The notes under the pieces: generated by a model
The model's input: the letters and a program-made list of their open reading frames with translations, nothing else
The model's database searches: none
What the model was told of the DNA's origin: nothing
Translations under genes and position numbers: made by a program
DNA from: a virus
Strand: one strand, 5' to 3'
IMG/VR virus record: IMGVR_UViG_3300032516_000195
Location: 1-24,424 of that record
Length of the DNA: 24,424 nucleotides
Shown: positions 5,694 to 21,134 of the stretch, piece after piece
Position numbering within the stretch: the first letter of the stretch is position 1
Layout of the letters: every line of letters begins with the position of its first letter

Positions 5694-8278
5694 TGGCCAT
5701 TATAAGATATACCAAAGATGCTACGATACGCTATGCATATTTAAACATCTTTCCAGATCAGTTCAAAACTGAGAAAGAAAAACAAGATGAGAGTTGGATT
5801 AAGAACACAATGGATTATTTTGCAAATAAGGCTTATGCTGAATATGTAAAAAATAGAGATACGTTTGTAAAAAACTATGATCTTGTTAAAGGGATTCTTC
5901 GTATGGAGGATTTTTATCAAGAACCTGAGGTGAGGAGTTTTACAGATATGCTTACATCAGATCTTAAACTTCCTTCCTATGTAAAAATGTATTCAATCAT
6001 AACCACTCCCATTAATGAACTAGTGGGTGAAGTGAGTAAACGTCCTGATGCATTTAGAGTGAAGGCCTTTGATGATGATAGTAAATCTGAAGAATTAGAA
6101 TTTAAAACTAGTATTTTACAGGAATATATTTTAAACGTTGCGAAAGAAAAAATATTACAAAAAGTTGAAATGCAAGGTGATGAGATTGATGATGAGCAAT
6201 TGCAACAAATGACAATGGAAGAAGTTCAAGATCAAATTGATACATACACATCTGTTGCAGAAAAATGGGCCAATCATATTCTTACATGTCAAAAAGCAGA
6301 GTTTAATTTAAAAGAAAAAGGAGAAGATGCATTTAGAGACTTATTGATTTCAGCTAGAGAGTTCTATCATATATATGAAGACAATTCTAAATTAGGATTT
6401 AATATAGAAGTGGCCAATCCTAAAAACACATGGTTTCTTTCCACTCCTGATAAAAAGTATATATCTGATCCAACAGGAAGAGCACAAGGAGCGTATGCTG
6501 CTGGTACTGTGCAAGTTATGGAACTGTCAGAAATAATTGAAAGTATTCCTGATATAACTAAAGAAGAGATTGATCACCTAAGAAGTTCACTACAAGACTA
6601 TGGATTGATTAATGTTCGTGAATCTAATCTAGGTAATCCAGATGCAACACCTGGTATTGACTCAGTGCAATATGATACATATGATCCTCTTGTTCTACAA
6701 ACTAGAATGATTATTGAATCAGAAATGAAAGATAATGATGATGGACTAAAAGACTTTTTAGGACTTACATCTAATGTTTCTTCTTTTGGATATAAATATG
6801 TTGTTGTTCGTGCTTATTGGATTTCTAAAAAGAAAATTGGTAAACTCATCTATATAGATGAAATGGGCAATCAACAATCTACACTTGTTGATGAAAATTA
6901 TAAATCAGGCACATTACCAACACAAGAGTCTTTAGAATGGGGATGGATTAATCAATGGTATCAAGGAATTAAAATTGGTCCAGACATCTATTTTATTAAG
7001 CCTTATAAGCTTTTAAACTATTGTCCTATTATAGGACTAATTCATGAGATAAAGAATACAGAGGCTAAATCCTTAGTAGATCTTATGAAACCTTTTCAGG
7101 TGCTTTATAATGTATGTATGAACCAATTATACAAGCTTCTTGAAAAAGAGGTGGGTAAGGTGTATCTTACATCTATAAGACATATTCCTATTCCTAAGGA
7201 TGGAGATGCACAAGATGCATTAGATGTTTGGGAAATGGAGGCACGTAATAGAGGAGTGATGTTTATAGATGACTCTCCTGAGAATTTAAAAAGTCCTAGT
7301 TCGTTTAATCAATTTAGAGATATTGATCTTACACGTACACAAGAAATACAATCTCGTTATACATTAGCACAAACTTTAAAGAATGAGTGTTGGGAACTAA
7401 TAGGTATGTCAAAACAAAGACTTGGATCTATATCTGCTAGTGAATCAGCAACAGGTACTAATGCAGCTATTTCACAATCATATTCTCAAACAGAACCTTT
7501 GTTTGTAGCTCATGAATATATATTAGGTCAATTATTTCAAGCAATAATTGATGCTGCTTTATATGTAGAATCTCAAAAACCAGAATCCACCCTTTCATAT
7601 ATTACAAATACAGGAGAGTCTGCCTTTGTTAAAGTGAATGGATCAGATCTTAAATTTAGAGATCTTAAGGTGTTTCTTACTAATAGACCAGAAGATCAAA
7701 GAATGTTTCAAGAAATTAGATCTTTATCTCAAGCAGTTCTTCAGAACGGTGGATCTTTATATGACATTATTGAATTATATTCAACCAATAGTGTAAGACA
7801 AATGAAGAAGGTGTTTAAAGATTTAAAAGTGAAGCAAGACCAAATGCAAGAGAGACAACAAGTGATGCAAGAAGAACAAATGAAAGCTCAACAAGAACAA
7901 GCTCAAGCACAATTACAACAGGTACAGCAAATAGCAGAACAAAAGATGGCACATGATGATTATCAAAAAGAACTTGATAGACTTTCTAAAGAAAAGATTG
8001 CTATTATTTCTGCTACAGGATATGGTAATGTACCAAGTGAAGATGAAAATTCTAACACTATTCCTGATGTATTAGAAATGAGTAAATTAACAAATGAACA
8101 AAATAAAGCTACAAAAGATTACCAATTGAAGATGGTGGAGATTAATTCTAAAAATAAACAAGCTTCTGAAAAAATAGCTATTGAGAGAGAGAAGCTTCAA
8201 GTGGATAGAGAAAATCAAGCCAATGATCTTGCTGTAGCAAAAGAGAACGCAAAAGGTAGAAACAAAAAATCTAAATAA
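5693..8278 (+). CDS. Portal protein
   Basis: At 861 aa this is large, as in crAss-like phages. It would form the dodecameric ring at one capsid vertex through which DNA passes. The N-terminal half is mixed alpha/beta (head-facing clip and wing regions). Residues around 575-640 (SASESATGTNAAISQSYSQTEPLF onward) match the portal stem/crown region with its long helix. Residues of about 712-790 form a glutamine- and glutamate-rich coiled coil (QERQQVMQEEQ-type repeats), and the end is highly charged, finishing in KKSK. Position after TerL and before scaffold/MCP supports the call. It ends in another TAATG overlap with the SPFH gene. Confidence 0.93.
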   Translation: MAIIRYTKDATIRYAYLNIFPDQFKTEKEKQDESWIKNTMDYFANKAYAEYVKNRDTFVKNYDLVKGILRMEDFYQEPEVRSFTDMLTSDLKLPSYVKMYSIITTPINELVGEVSKRPDAFRVKAFDDDSKSEELEFKTSILQEYILNVAKEKILQKVEMQGDEIDDEQLQQMTMEEVQDQIDTYTSVAEKWANHILTCQKAEFNLKEKGEDAFRDLLISAREFYHIYEDNSKLGFNIEVANPKNTWFLSTPDKKYISDPTGRAQGAYAAGTVQVMELSEIIESIPDITKEEIDHLRSSLQDYGLINVRESNLGNPDATPGIDSVQYDTYDPLVLQTRMIIESEMKDNDDGLKDFLGLTSNVSSFGYKYVVVRAYWISKKKIGKLIYIDEMGNQQSTLVDENYKSGTLPTQESLEWGWINQWYQGIKIGPDIYFIKPYKLLNYCPIIGLIHEIKNTEAKSLVDLMKPFQVLYNVCMNQLYKLLEKEVGKVYLTSIRHIPIPKDGDAQDALDVWEMEARNRGVMFIDDSPENLKSPSSFNQFRDIDLTRTQEIQSRYTLAQTLKNECWELIGMSKQRLGSISASESATGTNAAISQSYSQTEPLFVAHEYILGQLFQAIIDAALYVESQKPESTLSYITNTGESAFVKVNGSDLKFRDLKVFLTNRPEDQRMFQEIRSLSQAVLQNGGSLYDIIELYSTNSVRQMKKVFKDLKVKQDQMQERQQVMQEEQMKAQQEQAQAQLQQVQQIAEQKMAHDDYQKELDRLSKEKIAIISATGYGNVPSEDENSNTIPDVLEMSKLTNEQNKATKDYQLKMVEINSKNKQASEKIAIEREKLQVDRENQANDLAVAKENAKGRNKKSK

Positions 8279-8808
8279 TGTTTGATAAACTAGTAGAACT
8301 CGTAATAAATTGGATGGATAAAATCATGCCAATTGTAATAATTCCTTCATACGAAGAAGGTGTTAGGTTAAGTTTTGGTAAATTTAAAAAAGTGCTATAC
8401 CCAGGAGTTCATTTTAAAATACCTTTTGTAGATGAAATTATTAATCAACATGTTGTAGTGACCACCCTTAGCCTTCCAGCTCAATCACTATATACTCTTG
8501 ATAAACAGAACTTTGTGGTGAAAGGTGTAATCAAATATAGAATCACTGATGTTAAAATATTTTTATTAGAAGTGTATGATGCTCAAGATGCTCTATCAGA
8601 TATGACTTTAAGTATAATAAAAAATATAATAATATCACTTCCTGCAGAAAAATGTATAGATCCAGAACTAGATAATCTTCTTACAAAGAAAGTTAGAGTG
8701 GAAGCAAAGAAGTGGGGAGTTGAAATACAACAAGTCACTCTCACTGATCTAGCTCCAATTAAAAGTTATAGATTAATAAATGATAGTTTTTTAAACAAAC
8801 TTGATTAA
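8278..8808 (+). CDS. SPFH/Band 7 (stomatin/prohibitin-like) domain protein
   Basis: This 176-aa protein begins with a hydrophobic N-terminal part (residues 5-24, LVELVINWMDKIMPIVIIPS) that could insert in one leaflet. The SPFH signature follows: SYEEGVRLSFGKFKKVLYPG, then HFKIPFVDEI, beta strands with VVVTTLSLPAQ, and a TLDKQNFVVKGVIKYRI repeat. A helical section and the AKKWGVEIQQVTLTDL ending of Band 7 domains complete it. The long C-terminal coiled coil of cellular stomatins is missing. SPFH proteins scaffold membrane microdomains and regulate membrane proteases; a phage copy between portal and scaffold may tie head assembly to the membrane or interfere with a host protease such as FtsH. 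The role is inferred; the domain call is strong. Confidence 0.85.
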   Translation: MFDKLVELVINWMDKIMPIVIIPSYEEGVRLSFGKFKKVLYPGVHFKIPFVDEIINQHVVVTTLSLPAQSLYTLDKQNFVVKGVIKYRITDVKIFLLEVYDAQDALSDMTLSIIKNIIISLPAEKCIDPELDNLLTKKVRVEAKKWGVEIQQVTLTDLAPIKSYRLINDSFLNKLD

Positions 8809-8842
8809 ACAAAAATATATTAATGCTATATTACAACAAAAA

Positions 8843-8870
8843 TTGGAACATATAATCAATCATCTCTTTG
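8843..8870 (+). promoter_or_regulatory. Probable promoter of scaffold and MCP genes
   Basis: TTG at 8843-8845 and TCTCTTTG at 8863-8870 resemble the Bacteroidota -33 and -7 elements, with one mismatch in TAnnTTTG and 17 nt between boxes. It sits in the 118-nt gap before the scaffold gene, the longest non-coding break between TerL and MCP. An extra promoter here would raise scaffold and MCP over portal. Confidence 0.5.
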
Positions 8871-8926
8871 TAATAACATATATATAATTTACTTTTACAT
8901 TCATAACCAACCAAATACAACTACAT

Positions 8927-10174
8927 ATGGCTGAAAACTTAGATAATGATAAATCATTTGGTAATTTTAGTATTGAAAATACCATGGAAATGGGAATGGG
9001 AAATTCTGAACTATTGAATGACTTAATGTCCCCAGAAACATCAACAAGTAGTCCTGATGATATTCAGGATATAACAGAAGAACCTGCTGCTCCTAAAACT
9101 AAAAAAACTGCTAAATCTATAGGTGAAACTATAAATGAAGCTAATGTTGAAAAAAAAGATGAAGCAGAGAATGATAAAAAATCTTTAACTGACTTCTTAT
9201 TAGATGTTGATGAAGAGGAAGAAGAAGAAGTAAAACCTTCCACTGTTGTTGAATCAAGTTCTTCCACTGATGAACCTGAAGAAAAAGAAATTAGCAGATT
9301 TAGTGCTCTTTCTAACGACCTATATAAATTAGGTGTCTTTTCTAAGGATGATGATGAAGAAGCTTTACCAATTAACACTCCTGAGGAGTTTCTTGAAAGA
9401 TTTCAAGAAGAAAAAAGAAAAGGTGCTATAGATGTGGTGAACACATTCATTAGTCAATTTGGAGAAGATTATCAACAAGCATTTGAAGCCATATATGTAA
9501 AAGGAGTTAATCCTAAGGAATATTTTGGTGCATATAATAGTATAACAAGTTTTGCTGAACTAGATCTATCTAATGAGTCAAATCAAATACATGTTTTAAA
9601 ACAAGCATTGAATGATCAAGGATTTGAACCAGAAGATGTTGAAACAGAGATAGAAAGATTAAAAAACTACGGTGATCTTGAAACCGTTGCAGCAAAACAC
9701 CATAAGGTGTTAATCAAAAAAGAAGCTATAAAACTTCAACAAATAGAGCAACATTCTCAACAATTGCTTCAACAGAAACAAGCTATTAAAAGTGAATATG
9801 CAAATAATGTAAATCATATTTTGCAAGAAAAACTAAAGACAAAAGAATTTGATGGTATTCCCATCAATCCAAAGTTAATAAACGAACTACAAGATTTTTT
9901 AATAACAGATAAGTATAAAACATCTTCAGGTGAACAAATCACTGAATTTGATCGTACTATTCTAGAATTAAAAAGACCTGAGAATCATGAGAAAAAAGTG
10001 AAACTAGGTCTTCTCCTTAAAATCTTAGAAAAAGATCCCACTCTATCCACTATTCAAAAAAGTGGAATAAGTAAAAAGTCTGACATTTTATTTAGTGAAG
10101 TGGCAAGACAAGTTACAAAAGAAGGAACAAAATCATCAAGTGGTTCAAACAAATCTAATTCATGGTTTTTATAA
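8927..10174 (+). CDS. Head scaffold protein
   Basis: At 415 aa and placed between portal and MCP, this has the composition of an internal scaffold. A disordered acidic N-terminal third is rich in E, D, S and T (residues 40-125, including a run of E around 97-104). A helical middle follows. Residues 260-300 are a glutamine-rich coiled coil (LQQIEQHSQQLLQQKQAI). The end is basic and serine-rich with SGSNKSN, typical of the coat-binding tail of scaffolds. No protease active-site motif is seen, so scaffold removal would need another enzyme or exit without cleavage. The start ATG follows the same CAACTACAT leader as the gene at 11950. Confidence 0.8.
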   Translation: MAENLDNDKSFGNFSIENTMEMGMGNSELLNDLMSPETSTSSPDDIQDITEEPAAPKTKKTAKSIGETINEANVEKKDEAENDKKSLTDFLLDVDEEEEEEVKPSTVVESSSSTDEPEEKEISRFSALSNDLYKLGVFSKDDDEEALPINTPEEFLERFQEEKRKGAIDVVNTFISQFGEDYQQAFEAIYVKGVNPKEYFGAYNSITSFAELDLSNESNQIHVLKQALNDQGFEPEDVETEIERLKNYGDLETVAAKHHKVLIKKEAIKLQQIEQHSQQLLQQKQAIKSEYANNVNHILQEKLKTKEFDGIPINPKLINELQDFLITDKYKTSSGEQITEFDRTILELKRPENHEKKVKLGLLLKILEKDPTLSTIQKSGISKKSDILFSEVARQVTKEGTKSSSGSNKSNSWFL

Positions 10175-15523: not shown

Positions 15524-15676
15524 ATGGCAAACTGTCGTAATTGTGGAGCAAAATTTGGTTGTGGCTGTCAATTAATTAATGGCCTTTGTGCAGCGTGTAA
15601 TGCTGCATTAACTAAAGGCACAAAAAGAATAAAAGATGTTATTACCCAAACTTACAAATTGTGTAGATTGTTCTAG
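15524..15676 (+). CDS. Cysteine-rich mini-protein, zinc-ribbon-like (50 aa)
   Basis: The ATG at 15524 is one nucleotide after the previous stop, and the ORF ends in TAG at 15674-15676. Six cysteines lie in the first 25 residues in the arrangement CRNCG, CGCQ and CAAC, so two Zn-binding pairs are possible. A basic helix follows (LTKGTKRIKDVITQTYKLC). The pattern 'GCGCQLINGLCAACN' looks like conserved small proteins in Bacteroidota phage tail clusters. It overlaps the next gene by 41 nt in a different frame. Confidence 0.65.
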   Translation: MANCRNCGAKFGCGCQLINGLCAACNAALTKGTKRIKDVITQTYKLCRLF

Positions 15677-15914
15677 TATTCCTGCTTTACTTGCAGATAT
15701 TAATTGTAAGTTGGCAGAACTTGCAAATAATCTATATAATAATACAGTATTTTCTTTAAATCGTTCTATAAAAAGCGAAGTGACTTTTGATCTCATAAAC
15801 TATAAAAGAATTCTATTATATAGAGCTTGTAATATAGATTATGGTAATTATTGTAACACTGATATTTCATTAGAAATGATTGCAAGTAGAGTAAAACTAT
15901 TAATACACAAATAA
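15636..15914 (+). CDS. Small virion-associated protein with CVDC motif (92 aa)
   Basis: The start at 15636 lies inside the 50-aa gene. The first conserved part is NCVDCSSIPALLADINCKLAELANNLYNN, a helix-rich segment with three cysteines, followed by KRILLYRACNIDYGNYC and a helical end. It resembles short proteins next to adhesin genes in Bacteroidota phages. No catalytic motif is visible. The start could be a later internal codon, but the overlap fits the coupled translation used throughout this operon. Confidence 0.6.
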   Translation: MLLPKLTNCVDCSSIPALLADINCKLAELANNLYNNTVFSLNRSIKSEVTFDLINYKRILLYRACNIDYGNYCNTDISLEMIASRVKLLIHK

Positions 15915-15926
15915 AAATAAAAATAA

Positions 15927-17000
15927 ATGTCTTGTTCAAATTGTTATAATGGATGTTCAGAAATTGTTTCTGATCAATGTGTTAAATATACAGGAGTTAA
16001 TGTTCCTGTTCTTGGTATTCAAACTGGAGATTCTCTATCGTATGTTGAACAAGCATTGATTGAATTTCTTTCATCTACATTAAATGGAACAGGAATTAAA
16101 CCAGATATTGATCCTGCTATAATATGTACATTAGTTCAACAATATCTTCCTGATTGTGGAGATATTACAGCTGTTGATTTATTTAATGCTTTAATTAAAG
16201 CTGCTTGTGATCTTCAAGAACAAATTGATATTATTGTTGCAGACATTGCAGTTATTGAAGCTCCTTATACAGTGGGTTGTTTAACTGGTGTTATATCAAC
16301 TTCTGGAACACATGCTATTTTACAAGCTGTAATAACAAAACTTTGTTCAATAGATGTAGCATTAACAGCACTCACTCTTGATGTTAATACTAATTATGTA
16401 AAACTTGCTGATTTATGCACACTTGTTGATGCTTGTATAGCTCCTATTCCTACTGCTCCAGAACAATATAAAAAAATGGTTCCTTATACAGTGGTAGAAT
16501 ATTATGGAACTTTGGCAAACTTTGATGCAGCTGGAATTGGAATTACTGGACTTGGTTGGCAATATATATATTTATGTAATGGAGCTAATGGCACTCCTGA
16601 TAAAAGAGGAAGAACACCTGTTGGTGTAACCACTGTTACTGGTGGTGGTGCATTTAATCCAAATGTAGATCCTGCATTCCCTGGTAATATAAACTATACA
16701 TTAAATCAAATATATGGAACTAACACAGTAACGCTTACAACAAATCAAATTCCTGCACATACACATAATGCAATAACTGTTATATCTCCTGATCCTCATA
16801 CTCACACTTATAATACAGGTTCACGAACTACTACTGGTTGGAGTGGAGATAATGATGTTGATAATCTTGGTCCTCTAAATTCTACTACAGGAAGCACATC
16901 GTTAACAGCAACCACAACGATTGGTTCTACAGGAACAGGTCTTTCACATTCTAATATTCAACCTGTATTAGCTTGTAATTATATAATGTATATTCCTTAG
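15927..17000 (+). CDS. Tail-collar-domain protein, probable receptor-binding tip (357 aa)
   Basis: This starts with a short cysteine-rich stretch (MSCSNCYNGC) and a module (VKYTGVNVPVLGIQTGDSL-YVEQAL-EFL, residues 18-51) shared with the next gene. A helical middle follows (residues 60-190). The C-terminal 150 residues are a phage tail-collar/microcystin-dependent type domain: WQYIYLCNGANGTPDKRGRTPVG near 209, NQIPAHTHN near 272, a second histidine cluster PDPHTHTY near 290, and SHSNIQPVLACNYIMYI at the end. In T4 gp12-like fibres this fold binds metal through HxH pairs and contacts the host receptor. The gene ends in TAG. The receptor is unknown. Confidence 0.85.
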   Translation: MSCSNCYNGCSEIVSDQCVKYTGVNVPVLGIQTGDSLSYVEQALIEFLSSTLNGTGIKPDIDPAIICTLVQQYLPDCGDITAVDLFNALIKAACDLQEQIDIIVADIAVIEAPYTVGCLTGVISTSGTHAILQAVITKLCSIDVALTALTLDVNTNYVKLADLCTLVDACIAPIPTAPEQYKKMVPYTVVEYYGTLANFDAAGIGITGLGWQYIYLCNGANGTPDKRGRTPVGVTTVTGGGAFNPNVDPAFPGNINYTLNQIYGTNTVTLTTNQIPAHTHNAITVISPDPHTHTYNTGSRTTTGWSGDNDVDNLGPLNSTTGSTSLTATTTIGSTGTGLSHSNIQPVLACNYIMYIP

Positions 17001-17020: not shown

Positions 17021-18910
17021 ATGTCTTGTAATCCTGGAACACCGTGTTATTCAACCAAAGTAGGTTATCCTAAAGGATGTAATACAAACTATCCATGTGG
17101 TGTAAAAAAAATAACCACTGATGATATTGTATATTCAGGAGCAAATCTTCCTTGTTCTGGAATAAACACATGTGATACACTTACAGTGCTTATTCAAAAA
17201 ATAGATACATTTCTATGTGAAAGTTATATATGTGAGGTAGTGGCACAATGTTCTACCACCACCACCACAACAACAACAATTCTTCCTTTCACTTGTAATC
17301 CTTGTGTAACATATCTTTTAATCAACACTACATCTGTTCCTCAACTGTATAGTTGGACAGATTGTTATGGTGTAGTATATAGTGATTTCCAAATATTAGG
17401 AGATCAAGCTATACAGATATGTGTTTGTGAAGGTTCTCTTAGTTATAATCCAGAAGACATTTTAGCCTATCCTATTGGAGCAGGATGTCATCCTGTACAA
17501 GATACAACAACCACTACATCCACATCCACATCAACAACAACTACTACCACAACATTTTTTCCTATACAGTTTTGTGTATGGTCTACAGATTTTGTAGAAA
17601 CATCAGAATATAATGTAACTACAAATACTCTTTATAATGTTCCGATAGATAATGATCTTGTAGGAGTTGTTGGTATGACATCTACATATACAAAATTGTG
17701 GAAATATGATCCAATTACTAGAACAATTAGAGAATGGTTTATAAACTCTAATCCTGATTCTCTTGCATTTAATAGAAATATAACACATCAAGATCAATAT
17801 CCTAACTGGATAACTAATTCTGTTATTGCAGCTGTAGATAATAACACTATTCTTACAACACTTAATCCTACAAGTCTAATTTATCCATTAGGTGTTCCAG
17901 GAACAGTATTGTTATGGAAATATGATATATCTACAAACAGTGCATCCTATGGAACTGCTTTATTTGGAATAACAGCAACATATAATGCAACATCAATGAT
18001 GTTTACTACAGATAGTAAATTAATTGTTATTGCATCTAGATTGATTAATAGTGTTCCTACATTTTATTTAACTCAATATTCATACCCAGATGGATTAGTA
18101 GAAGTAGATATTAGTTTAGCATCTATATTGTTTAATCCTAGTGCTATTAGTTTAGGTATTTATGTAATTACACACAATAATGAAATTTACCTTATAAGAA
18201 CTTATGATAGCTCTTTATTTAAAATAGATACTACTTACCCATATGCAATAACAGAAGTTACAGCTAATTTAGGATTTCAACAAGAAAGAATATTTGAATC
18301 ATCCACTGGAGAATGTAATAATGTTAGTTTCACTTCTCAATTTCCTCAATGCGGTACAACTATTCCAAAGGTAGGAGAAACTTTTACTTATTTTGGAGTG
18401 ACAGGAACTGTTACAACACTTAGTGGAGGAATTGCTATTTATGGGTTTCTTTCTCCAGGATATTTTACACAATGTTCAGCACTGTGGCAACCTCCATTTT
18501 ATTGGATAGCTAATGGTCCACCTGCTACAATTGTATTAACATTTAATAGCCCTATTAATAACGTAGGTATTGTACTTAGTATATTAAATCTTGGTGATGT
18601 TTTTACAATTACAACAAATACAGAGGTTCCTACTTTAACAGCAAATATTTCATGTTATTCACATGTTTCTGGTAATCAAATAATAACTGATCCAAGTTTA
18701 CCAGGGCTTGGAGGAGATGGACAATTTACAATCACTACAATCACTCCTTATACAGTGTTAACTATAGTGGCTACAAATGGTGGTAATGGTGGTCCTATAG
18801 GACTAAGTTGTGATCCTAATGCACCACCAACAACTACTACTACAACAAGTACTACTACATTAGCTCCAACAGGATTTAATACTATATACACACACTTTGA
18901 AGCTTTATAA
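17021..18910 (+). CDS. Multidomain adhesin: anchor, Thr linkers, beta-propeller-like domain (629 aa)
   Basis: Order of parts: a cysteine-rich N-terminus (residues 1-30), an anchor module (IVYSGANLPCSGINTCDTL and LIQKIDTFL, about 34-65) shared with the preceding gene, Thr tract 1 (17255-17278), a compact domain (CNPCVTYLLINTT onward, about 90-160), Thr tract 2 (17504-17554), and a large domain of about 180-430. The large domain repeats strand-turn units such as LWKYDPITRTIREW, LLWKYDISTNSAS, LTQYSYPDGLVEV and LFKIDTTYPYAITEV, as in a beta-propeller. A beta-sandwich-like domain (about 430-600), Thr tract 3 (18830-18859) and a short end THFEAL complete it. It is likely a tail fibre or spike contacting the host surface. 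No enzymatic residue set was recognised. Confidence 0.75.
   Translation: MSCNPGTPCYSTKVGYPKGCNTNYPCGVKKITTDDIVYSGANLPCSGINTCDTLTVLIQKIDTFLCESYICEVVAQCSTTTTTTTTILPFTCNPCVTYLLINTTSVPQLYSWTDCYGVVYSDFQILGDQAIQICVCEGSLSYNPEDILAYPIGAGCHPVQDTTTTTSTSTSTTTTTTTFFPIQFCVWSTDFVETSEYNVTTNTLYNVPIDNDLVGVVGMTSTYTKLWKYDPITRTIREWFINSNPDSLAFNRNITHQDQYPNWITNSVIAAVDNNTILTTLNPTSLIYPLGVPGTVLLWKYDISTNSASYGTALFGITATYNATSMMFTTDSKLIVIASRLINSVPTFYLTQYSYPDGLVEVDISLASILFNPSAISLGIYVITHNNEIYLIRTYDSSLFKIDTTYPYAITEVTANLGFQQERIFESSTGECNNVSFTSQFPQCGTTIPKVGETFTYFGVTGTVTTLSGGIAIYGFLSPGYFTQCSALWQPPFYWIANGPPATIVLTFNSPINNVGIVLSILNLGDVFTITTNTEVPTLTANISCYSHVSGNQIITDPSLPGLGGDGQFTITTITPYTVLTIVATNGGNGGPIGLSCDPNAPPTTTTTTSTTTLAPTGFNTIYTHFEAL
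17255..17278 (+). repeat. Thr tract 1 of the 17021-18910 gene
   Basis: Eight consecutive threonine codons (four ACC then four ACA) join the anchor module to the next domain. Confidence 0.85.
17504..17554 (+). repeat. Thr/Ser tract 2 of the 17021-18910 gene
   Basis: Seventeen codons encode Thr with three Ser (TCC, TCC, TCA), ahead of the propeller-like domain. It is the longest such tract in the window. Confidence 0.85.
18830..18859 (+). repeat. Thr tract 3 of the 17021-18910 gene
   Basis: Ten codons of Thr with one Ser near the C-terminus are followed by a short tail ending in THFEAL. Confidence 0.85.
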
Positions 18911-18912
18911 TT

Positions 18913-20163
18913 ATGAATATTGAAGATATAAAATTAAAGGTACAAGAGTTGGCTGTTTCTACTTCTAACATCAATAGTGTTTCCTATGGATTTAAATTTG
19001 TTGGAAAAGAACAAACTAATGAGCTTTGTATAATGTATGGTGTAGAACAGAAAAAACCTCTGTCTGAACTATCTGCTGAAGAAATTTTACCTAGTGAAAT
19101 AACTATAGGAGATCAAGTCTTAAGAACAGATGTATATGAAATTAGTAGAGCAGAATTATTAGCATGTAATCCAGTATGTGGTCAAGTTGCAGGTGCAAAT
19201 TCTGCAGCTAATAGAGCTTTTACAAGACCATTAAAAGGTGGTTTATCAATTACATCAACTAATAATGTATCCACTGTAGGAACACTTGGATTTATAGGTG
19301 TGCATACAGAAACACAAACACTAGTAGGTGTTACTAATAACCACGTTCTTATACAAGATGCATTCTTTACATCAGAAAGAAATTTAACTGGTGTTATTAA
19401 AAATGAATACTCTCCAGTAGACTATGTATATCAAGATGGTGAATCTGGAGTTATTCCTCCTTTAAACTATAATATTGGTCAAACATTAAGATATGTTCCT
19501 ATTTCAAAAAATAATATTAATTTTGTTGATGGTGCAATATGTTCTTTAGAAGCTGCAGATGTAAATATTGCAACATCATATCAACAGGCTGGAGTTAGTG
19601 ATTATACACTTCCTCTTCCATTTGCTTCAACATCAGAGATAGATAATTTATTATCTACAAATCCAATGTTATATAGTTCTGGTAGAACTACAGGACCAAA
19701 AGGTGGTGTATCTTGTCCAGTTAGAGTGTTTGCTATATTTTCATCAACAATATTAACATATAATTTACAAGGAACTCCTACAATTTGTCAATTTCTTGAT
19801 CAAATAACATTTGTTAAACCAGAGAATGATCCTAGTTTAACAACTATTTGTTCTAATCCAATATATTCTGGTGATTCAGGATCTGCATTGATTGCTGATT
19901 TTGGTGGTGTAAGAAAAATAATTGGATTGGTATTTGCTGCAGGATCAGTTGGTGGTATAATCTATTATGGATATGCAAATAGAATTGATAGAGTGGCTAC
20001 AGAACTAGGTATAGAAGCTTGGGATGGAACAGCTAAAAGTTATGTAGATCCAGCATCTATTACATATAAAACTACTTATAATGGTAGCTCAAATAAAATA
20101 TTAAATTGTGCTAGTACAAACTACTGGCAAGTAGGATTAACTATACTAAATACCCCTTGTTAA
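18913..20163 (+). CDS. Trypsin-like serine protease with N-terminal prodomain-like region
   Basis: At 416 aa this carries a full chymotrypsin-fold triad by motif: H144 in TNNHVL, D206 in VDGAI, and S322 in GDSGSAL. The preceding strand GTLGFIGV is the usual first barrel strand. Residues 1-85 (SVSYGFKFVGKEQT, KKPLSEL, LPSEI, LRTDVYEI) look like the N-terminal domain of bacterial Nal1/trypsin-like peptidases, ending in a TDV-x-E element. Residues 85-110 may be a processing linker. No signal peptide is seen, so it would reach its target in the virion or after lysis. It lies 2 nt after the adhesin gene and 26 nt before another Thr-linker protein. Roles could be cleavage of host surface proteins during entry, or maturation of neighbouring tail proteins. 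Confidence 0.85.
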   Translation: MNIEDIKLKVQELAVSTSNINSVSYGFKFVGKEQTNELCIMYGVEQKKPLSELSAEEILPSEITIGDQVLRTDVYEISRAELLACNPVCGQVAGANSAANRAFTRPLKGGLSITSTNNVSTVGTLGFIGVHTETQTLVGVTNNHVLIQDAFFTSERNLTGVIKNEYSPVDYVYQDGESGVIPPLNYNIGQTLRYVPISKNNINFVDGAICSLEAADVNIATSYQQAGVSDYTLPLPFASTSEIDNLLSTNPMLYSSGRTTGPKGGVSCPVRVFAIFSSTILTYNLQGTPTICQFLDQITFVKPENDPSLTTICSNPIYSGDSGSALIADFGGVRKIIGLVFAAGSVGGIIYYGYANRIDRVATELGIEAWDGTAKSYVDPASITYKTTYNGSSNKILNCASTNYWQVGLTILNTPC

Positions 20164-20189: not shown

Positions 20190-21134
20190 ATGACAATATT
20201 AATAACATTAACTGTTGCTGGAACTGATACAGGTCCATTTAATCTATATTCTAATTTAGATGGATATACATCAGCGTTTGAAACAGGAGTGGCTAAAATT
20301 GACCTAGTTGCAGGTTATATATCAGGAGTTGTTCCTGATGGTACTACAATAATTAAAGTGGTATCTGATAATCCTATTTGTACAAATGATATAAACATTC
20401 CATTAAATTTAACTACTACCACTACAACAACTATAGCTAATCCTGCTACATCAATTTTAAGGTTTGATAATTACACAAGTGGTCTTTTTGAATTTACATT
20501 ATCCAATCCTATTTATTCTACAAATATTATTGTAAGTAGTGCTACAGTGGAAGGATGGACAAGTGGAACAGAATGTGCAGGTGAAACAGATGATAGTGAT
20601 TATGTTGATTGGTTAAATCCTATAATTGTAGGAGCTGGATCATCCACCGCTTCTTCTTTTGGAAATACACCAATGTCTCCTATAGTACAAAGCTGGAAAA
20701 GAGGAATTACTATTACAATAGATGGATATGGAAATTATGTAGATGCTGATACATTAACAATAGATGGAACACTTGTCACTGTAGAAATACCTAATGACTG
20801 TGAAATATATACTTCTACTTTATTTACAGAATATTCAGTGGGCGTTACAGTTAATTGTCCTACAGAATGTGATAATATATGTATAACAACACCTATTACT
20901 GTTTATACAGTTTTTGGTGCAGGAATTGAAACAGGAGTAACTGTTTATACAGACTCCTTACTTAATACACCACTTACTGGATTTAACTATATATTAAATC
21001 CAAACACATTTCATATTTATACTATAGATAGCGTTACAGGAGTTATAGGAGCTGATACATTGTTAACATGTCCTCCATCAACCACCACAACAACAAGTAG
21101 TACAACCACAACCACCACCACTATTCCTGTATAA
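20190..21134 (+). CDS. Thr-linker tail protein, probable host-interaction module (314 aa)
   Basis: The first domain (residues 1-70, LTVAGTDTGPFNLYSNLDGY, then VVPDGTTIIKVVSDNPICTN) is a beta-rich unit typical of tail proteins with Thr linkers in Bacteroidota phages. A seven-Thr tract (20412-20432) leads to a second domain (about 90-225) with FEFTLSNPIYSTN and GWTSGTECAGETDDSDY. A third beta unit (about 226-295) precedes the C-terminal Thr/Ser tract (21081-21122), and the protein ends in IPV. The second domain may be lectin-like, but no binding motif is clear. It is the last gene before the terminator at 21171 and so closes the adhesin group. Confidence 0.65.
   Translation: MTILITLTVAGTDTGPFNLYSNLDGYTSAFETGVAKIDLVAGYISGVVPDGTTIIKVVSDNPICTNDINIPLNLTTTTTTTIANPATSILRFDNYTSGLFEFTLSNPIYSTNIIVSSATVEGWTSGTECAGETDDSDYVDWLNPIIVGAGSSTASSFGNTPMSPIVQSWKRGITITIDGYGNYVDADTLTIDGTLVTVEIPNDCEIYTSTLFTEYSVGVTVNCPTECDNICITTPITVYTVFGAGIETGVTVYTDSLLNTPLTGFNYILNPNTFHIYTIDSVTGVIGADTLLTCPPSTTTTTSSTTTTTTTIPV
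20412..20432 (+). repeat. Thr tract 1 of the 20190-21134 gene
   Basis: Seven consecutive Thr codons link the N-terminal beta domain to the second domain. Confidence 0.85.
21081..21122 (+). repeat. Thr/Ser tract ending the 20190-21134 gene
   Basis: Fourteen codons, twelve of them Thr and two Ser, lie three codons from the stop. Together with IPV at the end it mirrors the LIP-terminated tract of the 13700-14866 gene. Confidence 0.85.

Follow-up and report, generated by a model that had tools for sequence, protein, structure and literature searches.

Genetic composition of the locus

The window analyzed in this study is a stretch of 24,424 nucleotides from the viral record IMGVR_UViG_3300032516_000195. 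It encodes a terminase (PHROG 6681), a major capsid protein (PHROG 11589) and a CrAss_Ring_2 protein (PF25702, 2.7e-18). The terminase matched crAss-like phages of Leptolyngbya, of Cellulophaga and of the gut. Judged by its sequence, the window is a fragment of a crAss-like phage that is distantly related to the gut crAssphages. Between the portal and the scaffold-like genes a short protein (8278-8808) was judged by eye to be SPFH/Band 7-like (prohibitin-like), which is unusual in a late phage cluster.

The gene under study is an ORF on the plus strand encoding 416 aa from ATG to stop. It starts 2 nt past the stop of a fibre ORF. A preliminary description of this DNA had placed it between two tail proteins with Thr linkers and 2 nt after one of them, and both neighbours do carry Thr-rich linkers. 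The following features were assigned:

15927-17000, plus strand: tail fibre protein of 357 aa (PHROG tail and tail fibre; weak Gp10_C)
17021-18910, plus strand: partner fibre/adhesin of 629 aa with Thr-rich linkers, directly upstream of the protease; its homologous C-terminal part (residues 179-629) stays by the protease in the related genome G001
18881-18898, plus strand: fibre C-terminal tag TIYTHF, within NTIYTHFEAL-stop, conserved in upstream proteins
18913-20163, plus strand: NAL1-like chymotrypsin-fold serine protease of 416 aa (ORF, PHROG 20754, AlphaFold2 model and NAL1 structural match)
18913-19164, plus strand: N-terminal domain, residues ~1-84, counterpart of the NAL1 N-domain (profile and structural alignment; Agromyces homologue)
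19165-19230, plus strand: linker with conserved Cys85/Cys89 and NR...RP..G (32-sequence alignment)
19231-20028, plus strand: catalytic beta-barrel domain, residues ~107-372 (alpha-lytic and S. griseus proteases align to 105-372)
19342-19344, plus strand: codon of catalytic His144, invariant; pairs with the His of NAL1 LTNHHV in the profile alignment
19528-19530, plus strand: codon of catalytic Asp206, invariant
19876-19878, plus strand: codon of catalytic Ser322 in GDSG, invariant; pairs with NAL1 EGDSGS
20044-20160, plus strand: phage-specific C-terminal module, residues ~378-416 (SITYKT..C..YWQVGLT..C), past the end of the NAL1 match (~382)
20190-21134, plus strand: downstream protein of 314 aa with Thr-rich linkers; its adjacency to the protease is not conserved

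The 357-aa tail fibre protein is located upstream of the fibre-protease pair in the window and downstream of it in most relatives. The N-terminal modules MTILITL.., MLLPKLTNC.. and MSCN.. are shared by the starts of otherwise unlike fibre genes, like interchangeable virion anchors. Genes with such shared modules in the window are located at 20190-21134, 15636-15914 and 17021-18910.

Family and fold of the protease

Searches with the single window protein gave no match to Pfam, even with E values of up to 1 allowed, or to NCBIfam, and a sequence search against the PDB was uninformative. However, PHROG 20754, annotated as protease, matched residues 3-153 (E 1e-16). When a profile of 32 sequences was compared with solved structures, plant NARROW LEAF 1 (NAL1) was the top match (E 0.005), with the alignment starting at profile position 27.

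An AlphaFold2 monomer model of the window protease (pLDDT 87.7, pTM 0.91) was aligned to plant NAL1 by VIA-align over 330 residues, covering model residues 1-382 (Z 30.4, rmsd 3.4). The next fold classes were alpha-lytic-type proteases (Z ~18) and HtrA (Z ~14). A chymotrypsin fold of the NAL1/HtrA type had been suggested before, together with a check of an AlphaFold model for a protease fold; the model has a clear NAL1 fold, with NAL1 as the best match by a wide margin. With the alpha-lytic and S. griseus proteases and HtrA/DegP, the similarity is confined to the catalytic barrel, from residue ~105 on. HtrA proteins additionally carry C-terminal PDZ domains, which are absent here: PDZ had no Pfam match, and only ~40 residues lie beyond the barrel.

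The bacterial homologue from Agromyces (L076) matched Trypsin, Trypsin_2 and NAL1_N as well as, weakly, Nal1_C. Its match to NAL1_N was 1e-4, which is under the Pfam cut-off, and that to PHROG 20754 was 4e-41. Linked by profile, by modelled fold and by this intermediate homologue, the window protein is with high confidence predicted to be a NAL1-type protease, an assignment well outside what chance would produce.

Plant NAL1 (Pfam NAL1_N, Nal1_C) shares the two-domain architecture, in which an N-domain is joined to a chymotrypsin-type barrel, and the triad. However, the identity is ~16%, and the phage members add a C-terminal module of ~40 residues, conserved cysteines, adhesin-type fusions and the pairing with a fibre. 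The bacterial-type NAL1-like proteases (L076 and that of the phage LR756508.1) and PHROG 20754 have the same N-domain motif and catalytic domain, but the L076 and LR756508.1 proteins are shorter (299-336 aa) and lack the C-terminal module, and the LR756508.1 copy is not near fibre genes.

The N-terminal domain

The N-terminus had been described as prodomain-like, with possible self-activation at the linker of residues 85-110. The first reading did not hold, and the second is unsupported. The structural alignment to solved NAL1 starts at model residue 1 and runs through the 85-110 region, and since the NAL1 match covers residues 1-382, the N-domain is part of the mature NAL1 architecture. The reading as a prodomain or zymogen was rejected accordingly. 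Trypsin-style activation after a Lys or Arg ahead of the barrel is likewise unsupported, because the residue preceding the GG step varies among relatives (K, L, Q, I or V) and no Lys/Arg is conserved there. Within the linker, C85, C89, N100, R101, R105, P106 and G109 were each present in at least 90% of the 32 aligned sequences.

Distribution and conservation

Two scans of viral contigs yielded 74 related viral loci, all of them metagenomic, and one scan of bacterial genomes yielded a single distant homologue, that of Agromyces. Among the phage records searched for a homologue of the protease, only the jumbo phage LR756508.1 was found.

The triad is contained in the stretches TNNHV (His144), NFVDGAI (Asp206) and SGDSGSA (Ser322). 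It was complete as first described, with the residues at the expected positions and invariant in alignments of 6 and 32 members. All three residues were kept in every relative whose sequence spans the site. The second viral scan used the patterns IQDAF[YF]T or YWQVG[LF]T; because the triad is in neither, its conservation is not by construction. With regard to the Asp at the base of the S1 pocket, which goes with the Arg/Lys specificity of trypsin in the narrow sense, the residue six positions before Ser322 is Pro316, nearly invariant in the 32-sequence alignment. The dN/dS of the protease against near relatives ranged from 0.23 to 0.40, indicating purifying selection. With its intact triad under such selection, the window protease is probably active, as far as sequence can tell.

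The C-terminal module was present in full-length viral members, a conservation that is partly by construction, YWQVG[LF]T being one of the two search patterns. Neither this module nor the N-domain was found among the other ORFs of the protease loci.

Twelve long contigs carried one protease gene each, with the exception of one contig with two in tandem. Several variants of the gene were seen among the loci. In L007 (4710-5978 and 5992-7278) and also in L006, tandem proteases that are ~50% identical follow a single tagged fibre, a duplication inside the cassette. In L061 the protease frame is broken in two (1160-1531 and 1777-2463) and neither ORF has the His region, which may reflect a frameshift, an insertion or an assembly error. 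In L062-L066 the N-domain is rebuilt with insertions, giving proteins of 506-645 aa, and the catalytic domain, the C-terminal module and the tag of the partner are retained. The partner fibre in L065 contains Fib_succ_major repeats.

The upstream fibre and its C-terminal tag

In loci with upstream sequence, the distance between the end of a fibre-like gene and the start of the protease is -4 to 34 nt. The encoded proteins are 389-1998 aa in size, some frames being open at the contig end, and their N-terminal modules, bodies and Thr runs vary. They share a tag near the C-terminus with the consensus T-[IMLV]-[YFW]-x-x-F. The tag was found in 57 of 59 distinct immediately upstream proteins. These are not independent, as many are from close relatives, but several clades are represented, whose proteases share 40-83% identity with the window protease. 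About 0.05 occurrences would be expected in the 59 proteins by the background rate of the motif. Among the other ORFs of the loci (plus strand, at least 100 aa) none of 315 carried it. Three long genomes had one tagged ORF each (1/178, 1/147 and 1/282), and in a fourth, belonging to an untagged clade, the tag was present in 0/226 ORFs.

The tagged fibre ends with NTIYTHFEAL in the window, and elsewhere with NTIFTYFQGVTP, NTIWMWFETETPA, VRTIFTKFNLFNQSV, VSTIYTTFKAI and IHTIYMKFGTKNC. The codons of the tag differ between relatives (ACA/ACT/ACC, ATA/ATT, TAC/TAT), and it is located 2-9 residues from the fibre end at a variable distance to the stop. Since both codons and distance vary, the tag is conserved, and under selection, as a peptide. 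A nucleotide-level translation signal was rejected because of the same synonymous changes and variable stop distance.

From the sequences we lean slightly towards the view that the tag contacts the protease. When tag and protease were modelled by AlphaFold2 as a single chain, by reading through the stop codon in relatives with a shared frame of the two genes, the tag was disordered (pLDDT <50). This is weak evidence against docking, because the tether is short, the model monomeric and the fibre probably trimeric. Furthermore, the upstream protein of the divergent clade L060/L067/L070/L075 lacks the tag, and in L067 it has a weak C1q-like end. At the sequence level, this clade counts against an explanation based on the tag.

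Relocation of the fibre-protease pair

The genome G001 encodes, within the same structural block, a capsid protein sharing 94% identity with its counterpart in the window. Here, the C-terminal part of the fibre (179-629), the tag and the protease were found together ~46 kb away. The old site retained a match to the fibre N-terminus alone, and a tagged ORF was absent there. The relocated pair adjoins a gene which we take to be DUF5856-like. Judged by this arrangement, fibre and protease change their place in the genome jointly, which the preliminary description had missed, as it had the tag of the upstream fibre.

This arrangement also bears on whether the enzyme could be a prohead maturation protease, as might be supposed because the major capsid protein precedes it in the window's late gene cluster. 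In G001, however, the gene is ~50 kb from that highly similar capsid gene, and no protease was found in the 38 kb searched of the crAss-like Leptolyngbya phage Lbo-JY46, the nearest isolated relative by terminase. Known prohead maturation proteases moreover have a different fold, and we regard a role in the prohead as extremely improbable.

Fusions with adhesin-type domains

Proteins of 766-1282 aa from several clades start with the protease as their N-terminal domain, behind which Thr-rich linkers and further adhesin-like domains follow, an arrangement resembling that of the fibre genes. These fusions are the strongest sign that the protease belongs to the adhesion apparatus. Together with the conserved linkage they bear out the tail-fibre context that the preliminary description had proposed. 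Presence in the virion is inferred from linkage and fusions, and a role of the protease at the fibre or in the virion appears likely.

A soluble intracellular protease directed against a host target (take-over or counter-defence) and located among the tail genes by chance would fit a protein in which no virion-attachment motif is recognisable. The homologue of LR756508.1 likewise lies outside any fibre cluster. However, the protease constantly has a tagged fibre as its neighbour, at several positions in the genome, and is fused to Thr-linker adhesin-type domains, which makes a soluble enzyme of this kind very unlikely. The LR756508.1 gene (L078, ~7983-8990), from a jumbo phage of 484 kb, encodes a protease of the bacterial NAL1-like type.

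The protease fold might also serve mainly to join the fibre to adhesins, with catalysis being secondary. Such a connector would account for the location between the tagged fibre and the fused adhesin-type domains as well as for the phage-specific C-terminal module. Occasional loss of the triad would be expected in a pure scaffold, yet no broken triad was seen in members spanning the site, and we assign this explanation a low probability.

In the main alternative, the tag is a substrate: the protease would clip the tag or a linker during assembly or adsorption, by which the fibre is activated or the particle released. One tagged protein per genome beside one protease is what would be expected of a dedicated substrate, and the common relocation of fibre and protease is in line with this. 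However, with the tag so close to the fibre end clipping would remove little, and the partners in L010, L013, L014, L019 and L062-L066 have no Thr run by the tag, so that the Thr linker is not a universal substrate. In addition, the fusion to adhesin-type domains in several clades is more than a pure processing enzyme would require. Fibre maturation is therefore considered rather unlikely.

Proposed role of the protease

Our preferred explanation is a NAL1-type protease of the tail fibre that is docked by the tag at the fibre end and trims a host surface protein. The fibre would be anchored to the virion via its swappable N-terminal module, and its C-terminal tag would bind the protease, much as gp38 sits on gp37 in T2-type phages. 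In the fused forms, the protease domain would bridge the fibre to further adhesin domains. On contact with the cell, the protease may trim the protein cover of the host surface and so give the phage access to its receptor; this is the least certain step, and it is a guess that the target is a surface protein. Digestion of host surface proteins or of the S-layer, cutting of adhesin linkers and release of the particle, all suggested in the preliminary description, are alike compatible with the sequence data. The enzyme would thus be a protein-cutting counterpart of the polysaccharide-cutting tailspikes. A point against this explanation is that none of the known virion-attachment domains is present in the window protease itself. 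Derived from sequence comparison, the chain as a whole is put forward tentatively, as a nearly even matter. A modular, relocatable pair, in which the tag on an interchangeable fibre recruits an active NAL1-type protease as a swappable protein-cutting head, is a serious possibility, of which we are not convinced.

Comparison with known systems

The gene for gp38 is located next to that for gp37. In T2-type phages gp38 is a separate protein at the tip of the long fibre on gp37 (PMC12892980). The likeness is a functional analogy and no homology is claimed, gp38 being a poly-glycine receptor binder and not an enzyme. Virion-borne depolymerases and lysins are also virion enzymes that breach a surface layer, but they cut sugars or peptidoglycan (PMC6116005); in a word search of that review, "protease" and "proteolytic" were absent. 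The related crAss-like phage crAss001 has fibre hubs in its virion, and its fibres are trimeric; the atlas of its virion mentions no protease (PMC10172136). For T4-like rhizobial phages, a trypsin-like protease gene is on record but has been assigned no function. No earlier description of a crAss-like or tail protease was found in the open literature searched. The fold family is known; a viral branch which is paired with fibres, fused to adhesins and accompanied by a partner tag was not found in the literature searched.

The NAL1 family is best known from rice, mainly from plant development. Plant NAL1 degrades a corepressor (PMC12915138).

Sugars and peptidoglycan are the main substrates of the virion enzymes known to break through surface layers. 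If an active protease is indeed tied to the receptor-binding fibre, it would follow that phages breach protein coats as well, with the tag pointing to the partner or the substrate of the enzyme. The present analysis provides a concrete protein pair, and it adds a viral branch with a link to fibres to proteases that are otherwise familiar chiefly from the development of plants.
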